Source: Halichondria panicea (Eukaryota > Porifera > Demospongiae > Suberitida > Halichondriidae). Taken from it: a stretch of DNA of 64,000 nt. The DNA lies in contig NC_087380.1 in NCBI RefSeq assembly GCF_963675165.1, positions 6,208,071-6,272,070 on the forward strand, in the 5' to 3' direction. The notes below the pieces were generated by a model. That model searched no databases, was not told the DNA's origin, and saw only the letters and a list, made by a program, of their open reading frames with translations. The translations under genes were made by a program, and so were the position numbers. Positions 33,901 through 52,574 of the stretch are shown here, in pieces. Each line of letters opens with the position of its first letter. Positions within the stretch are counted from its first letter, which is position 1.

Positions 33901-36900
33901 GAGTTGCACAAAATAAGCACATGCATGAAAGTGTGTAGAAATAGGCCATCTGCAACTTTGGTTTGTTACACAGCCTTGAATGAACCATGGAGTAAAGCGG
34001 ATATTACTCGAGGGTACCTTCGTTTCCAATCCCACTAATACACCAAGAAACTACTCAGAACATATATGTACATACTAACCAACAGCTACTAGTGTCGGTA
34101 CAACATGCACACACACCTCTTTGATCTGAGCCAGTTGCTTCCTGCACCCACCGATGTCGTCATATCCGACCTCGTTGAGCGACTCCTCTTCATCTTCTCT
34201 CTTGATGGGCTCTCCCTCGCAGTGGATCACAGTGTCAGGGGCCACAATGCAGTGAGGGCTCGGGTCAGTCTCAACTATCTGCAGGGCAGGGGGAGGAGGA
34301 TTTATAAGACACACACAGCACTTGAAGTACTGTGTATTAACACTTGGTTAGCATGCAATACCCACACTCACAGTGCCAGCTGTGACTAATGGTGTCATAA
34401 TTATATAATTATTACAGTACATTGTATGATTTATATCACGTGTAAGGTAACAAGCCTCTAACAAAATTCACCTTTTTGTTTTGTTTTTGTTACACAGCCT
34501 TAAATGATAATTTGGTAAGGGTCATTGTGATAAAAACCACAAAATTTATATTGCACATGTATGCAATGCACAGTCAGCACGCCTTCAGGCTTGTGCCTGT
34601 ATATATTGCACACAACACTCGGTGTCATGCTATATGCACTCCTGCTATTACTTAGCAATATATGGTTGCCATGGTTATGTGTTCTTGTGTAAACTGTAGT
34701 AGTTCATAACACTGGAATCCTTTTATCATTAGAGTGGTCAAGCAACATTGACAGTGACACATTTCACAGTGGCCCCACGCAGTAAATTAATTATTATATC
34801 ACTCTGCAACATTTCAGAACAGAGTAGTATTTAGTGGCCCACACAGCAAGTCCATTATTGATTTTGTCACTCTGCAAACTTCCAGAATATTGGCGTTGTA
34901 GTAATTAGTGGGTATCGCGCATGCTGCTACGATAACTATACTTGAATGAATATCTGGCATGTTGCAGTCTCACGAGCGCCAACATTTGGGAGAGGGAACA
35001 TCTGGTCACTATTGCACTAATTCCGTGGCTCTTGTCACAATGTTGGCAGTACCAATCAGTACGTCTTTAGTGGGCGGTAACACGTCATGATTTTCAATTA
35101 TAGAATAAAATTAACGTGAAAAAGATGGATAATATTGACTTATAAAAAAGATATTTTCCTTGGTGTGCACATGCGCACGCAAGCGAGGTATACGGTAGTG
35201 TGTTTGTATGTCTGTCTGTGTACACTGCTACAGCTGCTCAAAGTGCAAGCAAGAGTTTCTATAGGGTTCTAGTCTTTTTCTTGGATCGCAATCTATGGAT
35301 TTGCAAAATAATGCTTTGTTCTCGATATAGCTACTTGGAATGCCATTGCAGAACAGTGCGTAGCAAAACTTGTCCATGGAGCGTTGCTACTCTACTTACA
35401 TGTAGTTAGCTCTGCACTAGAACGCTAGCTGCAATTGTTTCATGCACCCATTTGTATGGACTTTGAACCTTTTTAGCAACAGTCATGGTCGATAATTGAT
35501 TTGTAGCTTCATGTCGTATAGTTTTGGTGCCTCCACCGAGGCATCAGGTGCCTGTCAGTGACATACTATATGAACTATTTTCACGGTAGTGAGTAATTAG
35601 TGGTCTCATACTAGAACATCTGGCTCTTGCTACTAACATGTATAACCTAGATCATGGATAGTATAAAAGGAGAAGCAAGAATAGAGTAATTATCATAAAA
35701 AACATCATAATCTCATCAGCAATGGCGGTCAAGTTCTTTGTTGCGACTCTCATCGGTGTCCTCCTTGTGGAGACTGGATTCGTGAGAGCTGATCCACTGG
35801 TGCAGAAGAGCACTAAGGTGTTCACCGGGGTAGCAGCAACTCGAGAAAAGAGACAAACTAGGTAAGTACTTTGAATCGTAGAACATGGCTAGTGAACTCA
35901 TGCAACTTTTGTTTCCCTCAACAGAGTTTGTGATTGTGAAGCTCAACTCTTTGATGGACTGAAGTACAGTGGCAAGGAGCTAATTGTCTATCAACAAAAC
36001 GCACGATTTCAAAACGACTTGTTCACCAATAAAGTTGAAACAGTTAAAATAACTGGCAAATGCGCATATATGTTCTATGACAAAGAAAACTTTGAAGGTA
36101 ATTCTTTCCGATTTGATACTGCAGGAAACTATGGCAGCGATAAACCTTTGAGTGAAAATATTCTATCGGGTCGTGCCTTCCCTCCAAAAGGAACAGATGC
36201 AATCTGTCTCTTCGAAAAAAGTGTCCACCGTGGACGAATGATGGTCCTTTATTCGTCCCAGGATAATATTCCTGACAACGAACCTATCTCTTCGGTGGTT
36301 GTGGTTGAAGGAAGTTGGACTTTGTACGAGCTCGCTAACTATGGCGGCCAATCCAAGACTATTGGTAAAGGCTACTATATTAGTCTATGGAATCTAGGAA
36401 AATTCAAGATCCGCTCCATTACCAAGAACTAAATTAGTACTCAAGTGAACAGAAACACATAATTACAAATAGTGTAGATAATGAACAGAATTTGGTAGGT
36501 GACCATAGAGAGCTATAATTATCATGGATACTTTACTAGCATACTGCAGATAAGAATACTATCTGAACTAGAGCACTGAAGTGCTAACCCTTGGCTGTTG
36601 ACATAGCAACCAAAGGAGTGTTATTCTAGAAGTAACACAGCAAATTCAGTAAAGAAACCTGGAGTCTTAAAAATATGGCTCCTGCTTGGTATGTTCTGGG
36701 GCTAAGGAAGCAACAAAAACAATCATAAATAAATTATTTAATGGCCCTTTTTATTGTTCCTGGTACGGGATCACTTCAGTTGTAAATACGTACTTCAAAT
36801 AAAGGCCGCATGTAGCTAGCTAGCCAACGTGTGAGTTCAAAGTCAGTAAAGAAGCCTGGAGTCTTAGAAATAATGGCTCCTGATAAGTCTGGGGGCTAGG

Positions 36901-51872: not shown

Positions 51873-52574
51873 ATGGCAGTCAAGTTCTTCGTTGCAACTC
51901 TCATTTGTGTCCTCCTTGTGGAGACTGGATACGTGAGAGCTGGTCCACTGAGCACGGAAGTGTTCACCGAGGTAACAGCAACTCGAGGAAAGAGACAAGC
52001 TGGGTAAGTGCTTCAGTGGAAGATTGGCTAGAGTGAACTCATGCAATTTTGTTTCCCCCAACAGAGCTTGTGGTTGTGATGTCTATGCCTATGATGGACC
52101 AACTACAGTGGCAGGGAGCTACTCATCCGTCAACAAAATGCACGATTTAGCAACGACTTTTTCAACGATCGAGTCGAATCGCTAAAAATAAATGGCAAAT
52201 GCACCTACTTGTTCTACGAGCATACAAACTTTCTAGGTAATGTTTTCATCAAGACTCCAGGTTACTATGCATCTCTGGCTAACTTTGGCAACAGTATCTC
52301 ATCGGCTCGTGCCCTCCCTCCACAAGGAACAAATGCAATCCTTCTCTTTGAGCATACCAACTACGCCGGACGAATGGTTGCCCTCTACTCGTCCCAACAA
52401 AATTTGCCTTTCCTTGATTACAACGATCACATCTCTTCGGTGATTGTGACAGGAGGATCTTGGACTTTGTATGATCACACTAACTATCATGGCTCTTACC
52501 AGACTATTGGTGTAGGCTACTACCCTCAACCTCCGGTAGGGAACGACAGGATTAGTTCCATTAAGAACAACTGA
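51873..52574 (+). pseudogene. Beta-gamma-crystallin 4 with a 1-bp frameshift
   Basis: Exon 1 (51873-52003) codes for an intact signal peptide ([19 protein letters not shown]) and a propeptide ending GKRQAG. Exon 2 (52065-52574) is 510 bp, and with exon 1 this is not a multiple of three. Aligned with crystallin 1, one base is missing near 52094-52098. The shifted frame reaches a stop at about 52181. The downstream frame is otherwise fully open and well conserved (YFLFYEH-type, ILLFEHTNYAGRM, NDHISSVIVTGGSWTLYDH, NDRISSIKNN). Either a recent pseudogene or a sequencing error; conservation of the rest makes both plausible. Confidence 0.8.

Follow-up and report, generated by a model that had tools for sequence, protein, structure and literature searches.

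A stretch of 64,000 nucleotides (nt) from the sponge Halichondria panicea (contig NC_087380.1, here C4, C4:6208071-6272070; called the window, to which positions refer unless a contig or locus is named) contains the VCP gene on its minus strand and four beta-gamma-crystallin genes on its plus strand, one of them nested in VCP intron 5 and the others among copies of VCP exons. For genome-wide searches, 131 megabases in 39 contigs were used. A tblastn search with human VCP matched 18 open segments between 39301 and 24993, in which 782 of the 806 residues are represented, and the exon 6 sequence was identified as VCP by phmmer. By DNA and protein searches, exon 6 was found in four places genome-wide, all inside the window, so that VCP appears to be single copy in this genome. 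Exons are numbered as in an initial annotation of this sequence. The functional gene (copy A) contributes the first of five units, U1 to U5.

24993..39464, minus strand: VCP copy A, every region represented; exon 1 (39436-39464) placed by eye, last matched exon ending at about 24993 (tblastn)
34117..34278, minus strand: VCP exon 6, U1, functional (tblastn, alignment, splice-site check)
37390..37498, minus strand: VCP exon 5, U1, functional (tblastn, splice-site check)
35722..36432, plus strand: crystallin 1, open, antisense in VCP intron 5; exon 1 35722-35861 with hydrophobic signal-like start and KR site, exon 2 35925-36432
44070..44759, plus strand: crystallin 2, U2, open (reading frames, Pfam)
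48789..49542, plus strand: crystallin 3, U4, open, by far the most divergent of the four (Pfam, four-fold sites)
51873..52574, plus strand: crystallin 4, U5, frameshifted upstream of 52095 (reading frames)

Crystallin 1 lies wholly between VCP exons 6 and 5 on the opposite strand and is thus a nested antisense gene; the initial annotation had placed it in intron 5, and the exons matched by tblastn together with the crystallin frames bear this out. The second exons of all four crystallins match PF00030 with 47-89 bits (curated cut-off 25), and the two Greek-key domains of a beta-gamma-crystallin are present. The crystallins have a hydrophobic start and three of the four a dibasic KR site, and from these sequence features the VCP-nested crystallins look secreted. 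They share the two-domain fold and the domain arrangement of geodin, the beta-gamma-crystallin of Geodia cydonium (PDB 4IAU), at an identity of 21%; the hydrophobic start and, in three of four, the KR site are candidate differences. At least 28 Pfam matches to the crystallin domain were found in the genome, 6 in the window and 22 elsewhere among the matches listed. In the open frames of other crystallins at loci L011-L016 no first exon of the window type was seen by eye, which falls short of proving its absence.

The repeated units were delimited by aligning 33000-56000 against the whole window, a self-alignment proposed with the initial annotation, and common flanks are present. Exon 6 (34050-34286) recurs at 46153-46385, 47810-48051 and 51263-51464 with 93-95% identity and as a 46-nt edge at 43556-43598; exon 5 (37377-37520) recurs at 47168-47307 and 50531-50705 with 90-91% identity and as a 40-nt edge at 45437-45476; a block of intron 4 (37522-37890) recurs at 45567-45920, 47306-47594 and 50716-50964 with 80-85% identity. 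All copies listed initially were recovered, with crystallins 2-4 beside copies or remnants of VCP exons 5 and 6 and block copies near 37621, 45646, 47318 and 50716; a unit at 46153-47594, with exon 6, exon 5 and the block and no crystallin, had been omitted. The two edges flanking crystallin 2 are weak singly (E 1.6e-5 each) and stand in the correct order.

In plus-strand order, U1, the functional gene, consists of exon 6, crystallin 1, exon 5 and the intron-4 block; U2 of the exon-6 edge, crystallin 2, the exon-5 edge and the block; U3 of exon 6, exon 5 and the block; U4 of exon 6, crystallin 3, exon 5 and the block; and U5 of exon 6, crystallin 4, a 22-copy repeat of 47 base pairs (bp) and exon 4. 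Beyond U1 there are thus four extra units, U2-U5, of which U3 probably lost its crystallin and keeps the edges. U3 and U5 have in common an exon-6 flank (46383-46719, 90% alike), a 30-nt stretch (46904-46932, corresponding to 51797-51826 directly upstream of crystallin 4) and a further stretch (47017-47095, corresponding to 54122-54205 downstream). Since the three matches are collinear, intron 5 of U3 probably once held a crystallin.

43556..43598, minus strand: exon 6 edge, U2, acceptor kept (self-comparison, splice-site check)
45437..45476, minus strand: exon 5 edge, U2, acceptor kept (self-comparison, splice-site check)
46221..46382, minus strand: exon 6 copy, U3, one TGA stop (alignment, genome protein search)
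46383..47180, no strand assigned: intron 5 of U3, crystallin gone, with the three stretches common with U5 (pairwise scan)
47181..47285, minus strand: exon 5 copy, U3, frameshifted (alignment)
47882..48043, minus strand: exon 6 copy, U4, open (alignment)
50536..50641, minus strand: exon 5 copy, U4, open, 3-nt deletion (alignment)
51300..51461, minus strand: exon 6 copy, U5, open (alignment)

The units also contain other repeats. The 22 copies of the 47-bp repeat (53040-54073, 99% alike, between crystallin 4 and the exon-4 remnant) are probably young. A short part of the U5 flank, 51523-51581, is behind most of the matches listed out of 705 genome matches, many of them regularly spaced, and is therefore part of a widespread short tandem repeat. 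In VCP intron 5, pieces of 35147-35547 match 8217-8833 in inverted and 30196-30408 in direct orientation, perhaps as a small transposable element.

The array is part of a wider duplication. Comparison of 24000-41900 (copy A) with 41900-64000 (copy B) revealed 15 blocks in a single order and orientation, taking U2 for the middle ones: VCP exons 10 and 9 with part of intron 9 between them, then exon 6, the crystallin, exon 5 and the intron-4 block, then exons 4 and 2 with part of intron 3 between them, followed by two promoter-side stretches, the first and the last exon of a kinase gene and one presumed kinesin-gene exon. What remains among the matches are further U3-U5 copies, three short stretches that match a 28-bp repeat next to exon 9, and three matches in inverted orientation, including one simple repeat. 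VCP exon 1 was also recognized by eye in copy B, where it reads into a stop after seven codons; neither tblastn nor the A/B comparison revealed exons 3, 7 and 8 or any exon after 10 in copy B. The VCP remnants of copy B carry a stop in exon 10, a 6-nt deletion in exon 9 and insertions or deletions in exons 4 and 2.

The last kinase exon was found by search in two places only, one per copy. In copy B, one exon of the gene matches the Pfam kinase and the best PDB match is LIM domain kinase 1; copy A keeps remnants of the first and last exon only. The gene to the right of the duplication is KIF2-like (best PDB match KIF2C, Pfam score slightly below the cut-off), and 60785-60883 is inferred to be one of its exons because an open coiled-coil-like peptide is kept in both copies. 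The collinearity of the 15 blocks shows that copies A and B arose by tandem duplication, and the survival of VCP in A and of the kinase in B indicates reciprocal loss. The array thus sits in a tandem duplication of the VCP 5' half, the kinase gene and a piece of the kinesin gene, which was followed by reciprocal loss.

40011..41471, plus strand: copy A kinase remnants (first exon 40011-40114, last exon 40712-40896) and, with its coding sense on the minus strand, the kinesin-gene stretch 41373-41471 (A/B comparison)
42231..43036, minus strand: copy B remnants of VCP exons 10 (stop) and 9 (6-nt deletion) (tblastn, A/B comparison)
54238..54753, minus strand: copy B remnants of VCP exons 4 (shortened), 2 (insertions or deletions) and 1 (early stop), exon 3 not found (tblastn, A/B comparison, exon 1 by eye)
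55235..60229, plus strand: copy B kinase gene, head to head with the VCP remnant, presumably one gene, ends set by eye (reading frames, Pfam, PDB)
60785..60883, minus strand: stretch at the right border of the duplication with open coiled-coil-like peptide, putative kinesin exon (A/B comparison, PDB search)

A tandem duplication with reciprocal loss and a subsequent amplification of a unit inside the dead VCP copy is regarded as the probable history of the locus. As the collinear blocks show, a segment from VCP exon 10 through the promoter, the head-to-head kinase and a piece of the kinesin gene was duplicated; copy A kept VCP and lost most of the kinase, and copy B kept the kinase with a decaying VCP fragment, as the surviving exons document. 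In copy B, a unit running from intron 6 and exon 6 through intron 5 and its antisense crystallin to exon 5 and intron 4, the last with a structured 136-nt element, would then have been repeated to four units with common junctions, presumably by unequal crossing-over, and the units would afterwards have lost different parts. The host exons would travel only by lying between or beside nested genes, and a dispensable secreted protein may have diversified in a host that was pseudogenised and hence permissive. A processed or retro-copied VCP was rejected as a source, the introns not being removed and the intron-4 block and splice sites being kept.

The relative ages of the crystallins and their flanks agree with this history in part. 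Crystallins 1, 2 and 4 differ at 9/50, 11/50 and 12/54 four-fold sites, without a significant difference from the intron-4 flanks with 18/126 and 20/120 (p 0.2 and 0.5 in two comparisons), which is what joint copying would predict. The exon copies behave mainly as debris: pairwise, 7/8, 8/9 and 5/5 differences between the exon-6 copies of U3, U4 and U5 are nonsynonymous (20/22 in total), by which purifying selection on these copies was rejected, and this excess, the stop in U3 exon 6 and the frameshift in U3 exon 5 together lead to this conclusion. The initial annotation had described a nested gene amplified while its host exons became debris, some still open and with splice sites. The unit of exons 5 and 6 and the intron-4 block and the mostly decayed state of its copies stand, as do the open exon 6 in U4 and U5 and the intact dinucleotides where present; not covered by it are the wider duplication as the first event, the greater age of crystallin 3 relative to its flanks, the distinct structured element in the intron-4 block and the unit without a crystallin.

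Several observations weigh against the proposed history. The four-fold divergence of crystallins 2-4 exceeds that of the youngest intron pair (28/330, p 0.006). Crystallin 3 is saturated relative to the other three (34/45, 32/49 and 36/53 four-fold sites differ), whereas divergence is 3-9% in the VCP exon copies next to it and 9-36% in the intron stretches that can be aligned; the duplication of its flanks was therefore not the event that produced it. It is far older than the flanking exon copies, which needs more than one crystallin in intron 5 beforehand, or a later arrival. When the junctions were aligned alone, U4/5 differed from the other two at 36-41% of sites, near no similarity. Decay is also less complete than expected for debris. 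Between copies B and A, exons 10, 9, 4 and 2 show 21 synonymous and 16 nonsynonymous differences of 37, where about 22.6 of the latter would be expected if one copy is functional and the other dead (p 0.028). The exon-6 copies differ at 22/486 sites against 28/330 in the U3-U5 intron flank (p 0.025, the pairs not being independent; for the U3-U5 pair alone, 9/162 against 28/330, p 0.28). The splice dinucleotides left in copy B are intact in 20/20 cases (10/10 acceptors, 10/10 donors), for which the chance is 0.20-0.015 at 4-10% divergence. These tests hint at earlier constraint or gene conversion, either of which, acting part of the time, may explain both low-change results.

In crystallins 1, 2 and 4, amino acids change about as fast as silent sites, and the reading frame and profile match of crystallins 1 and 2 are preserved. 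Raw counts suggested positive selection on the mature proteins, but the tests did not bear it out: the ratio of nonsynonymous to synonymous rates under GY94 is 0.83-1.31 with likelihood-ratio values of 1.2, 0.5 and 0.2, none differing from 1, and the comparison of second positions with four-fold sites (p 0.05, 0.7 and 0.4) does not support it. Crystallins 1 and 2 share an identical run of 91 nt (35709-35799 and 44057-44147), and their same-residue codons differ in 0/35 cases in exon 1 versus 14/65 in exon 2 (p 0.002), a pattern read as recent gene conversion, but no such contrast between the exons was found for pairs 1-4 and 2-4 (p 0.6 and 1).

The intron-4 block has a core of about 136 nt that differs by 1.5-4.6% among four units.

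37683..37818, minus strand: 136-nt element copy 1, VCP intron 4, U1 (genome search, folding)
45708..45843, minus strand: 136-nt element copy 2, U2 (alignment)
47387..47525, minus strand: 136-nt element copy 3, U3 (alignment)
50774..50907, minus strand: 136-nt element copy 4, U4 (alignment)

A further copy was found by genome search at C4:6652448-6652590, in an intron of the gene for the phenylalanyl-tRNA synthetase alpha chain and with the same sense as that gene, and a much weaker match at C4:6664283. Between U2 and U4 the core differs at 3/132 sites, whereas its own flanks differ at 18/126 (p 0.0004); for the intron flank of U3 and U5 the figure is 28/330 (p 0.013). In host sense, the five copies fold into two hairpins joined by a hinge, with energies of -50 to -59 kcal/mol and z of -1.7 to -4.0; two copies folded antisense gave -36 and -43 kcal/mol with similar z (-1.7 and -1.8), so that the fold alone does not choose the strand. 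In H/ACA guide RNAs the hinge box has the motif ANANNA and the ACA box lies about 3 nt from the 3' end. By eye, an ACA follows the second stem in U1, U2, U4 and the synthetase copy and not in U3; no exact ANANNA box was seen in the hinge, AGATCG being the best with 5/6 positions. No Rfam match and, across the five sequences, no compensatory pair change were found. Against 18S only, the best guide pockets were equalled in 58 and 25 of 200 shuffles and gave no significant target. The element thus resembles intron-encoded H/ACA guide RNAs in its 136 nt, its two hairpins with hinge, an ACA after the second stem in four of five copies and its sense position in introns of two housekeeping genes, but has no exact H box, no Rfam match and no significant 18S target; it is described here as H/ACA-like and not filed as a member.

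A second case was found at C15:4914903-4922910, where three other crystallins, intracellular-looking by eye, lie on the plus strand among minus-strand copies of CFAP69 exons, a name that a PDB match supports as well. In joined coordinates (C15:4899100 = 1), the crystallin at 22734-23246 lies between the CFAP69 exons for model positions 597-638 (23641-23781) and 641-686 (21596-21850), and the exons for positions 38-578 follow rightward in order, so that this crystallin is an antisense gene within an intron of CFAP69. The three crystallins alternate with three copies of the 597-638 exon, two of the 641-686 stretch and two of a short peptide from the preceding exon; the long blocks are 88-90% alike. 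As both host and crystallin type differ, the VCP and CFAP69 amplifications are taken as independent, and finding this architecture again at CFAP69 points to a process that recurs within the genome. Of the further crystallin clusters on C17, C7 and C6, which were surveyed for repeats and open frames, the one at C6:6115000-6133000 forms a large inverted repeat with long blocks 87-93% alike.

Other histories of the VCP locus were weighed against these data. An older crystallin cluster in intron 5 is a possibility of some weight; the whole intron with its flanks would have been duplicated later and each unit would have kept a different crystallin by differential loss. The saturation of crystallin 3 beside exon flanks of 3-9% divergence argues for it, as does the pairwise scan in which intron 5 of U4 matched the other units solely within the second crystallin exon, but the ages of crystallins 1, 2 and 4 do not differ significantly from those of the intron-4 flanks, and U3 and U5 have parts of intron 5 in common outright. 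It is highly unlikely that exon 5, crystallin and exon 6 were amplified directly from VCP: such a unit exists and recurs, yet VCP exons 2, 4, 9 and 10 are duplicated around the array, and with them, in the same order, the promoter region, two exons of the kinase and the kinesin stretch. An assembly artefact of unmerged haplotypes or misjoined repeats is barely credible, for although the locus is known from one assembly, its units differ by 1.5-41% in different features and have private deletions.

The remaining alternatives concern the state of copy B. That it is alive, with transcripts that start at the promoter it has in common with the kinase and are spliced to serve as non-coding hosts of the 136-nt elements, is rather unlikely; the element cores more alike than their flanks, the intact splice dinucleotides and exon differences without codon bias would fit such a host, but conversion between copies would yield the same core pattern, exon 3 was not found and the U2 exons are truncated. 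A broader form of this idea, in which nested crystallins would multiply again and again through the breakage and repetition of their hosts (VCP and CFAP69) and the dead VCP copy would be a transcribed, spliced non-coding host selected for guide-like RNA copies and fast-changing secreted crystallins, is unlikely and is offered as speculation. The chance that the copy B exons serve as alternative exons of the functional VCP is very remote: exon 6 is open in U4 and U5 with intact splice sites, but the exons lie upstream of the functional exon 1, exon 5 with 109 nt is no multiple of three, exon 1 of copy B hits its stop after seven codons, and stops and frame breaks occur in U3, exon 10 and exon 4.

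Elsewhere in the window, four minus-strand open frames at 3965-24145 have very similar MATH-like ends and divergent middles (by eye; 10448-11728 was profile-tested), and another frame with a MATH-like end (L010:1214-2017) was found at the locus of the weak copy of the 136-nt element. A transfer RNA gene lies on the minus strand at 62669-62741 between exons of the KIF2-like region.

In animals, duplication of a host gene brings about duplication of the opposite-strand genes nested in its introns. The VCP locus likewise has a small antisense gene in an intron of a housekeeping gene, but its host copy is a broken 5' fragment with exons repeated between the nested genes, and two hosts are affected in one genome. 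As in other tandem duplications with reciprocal gene loss, the two neighbouring genes have survived in different copies; what sets this locus apart is the nested-gene array that arose in the dead host copy. The mechanism is ordinary and its parts are of known kinds, whereas their combination and recurrence are unusual. In the titles and abstract openings that were searched, no description of this locus was found.

For annotation, the open and spliceable VCP exons are a warning, as they do not represent a second VCP gene. The locus is an unusually legible record of how nested genes can multiply though their host must stay single: the dead copy of a duplicated host hosts the expansion, and the host exons are passengers. 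With two hosts in one genome, it becomes testable whether nesting itself promotes such expansions.
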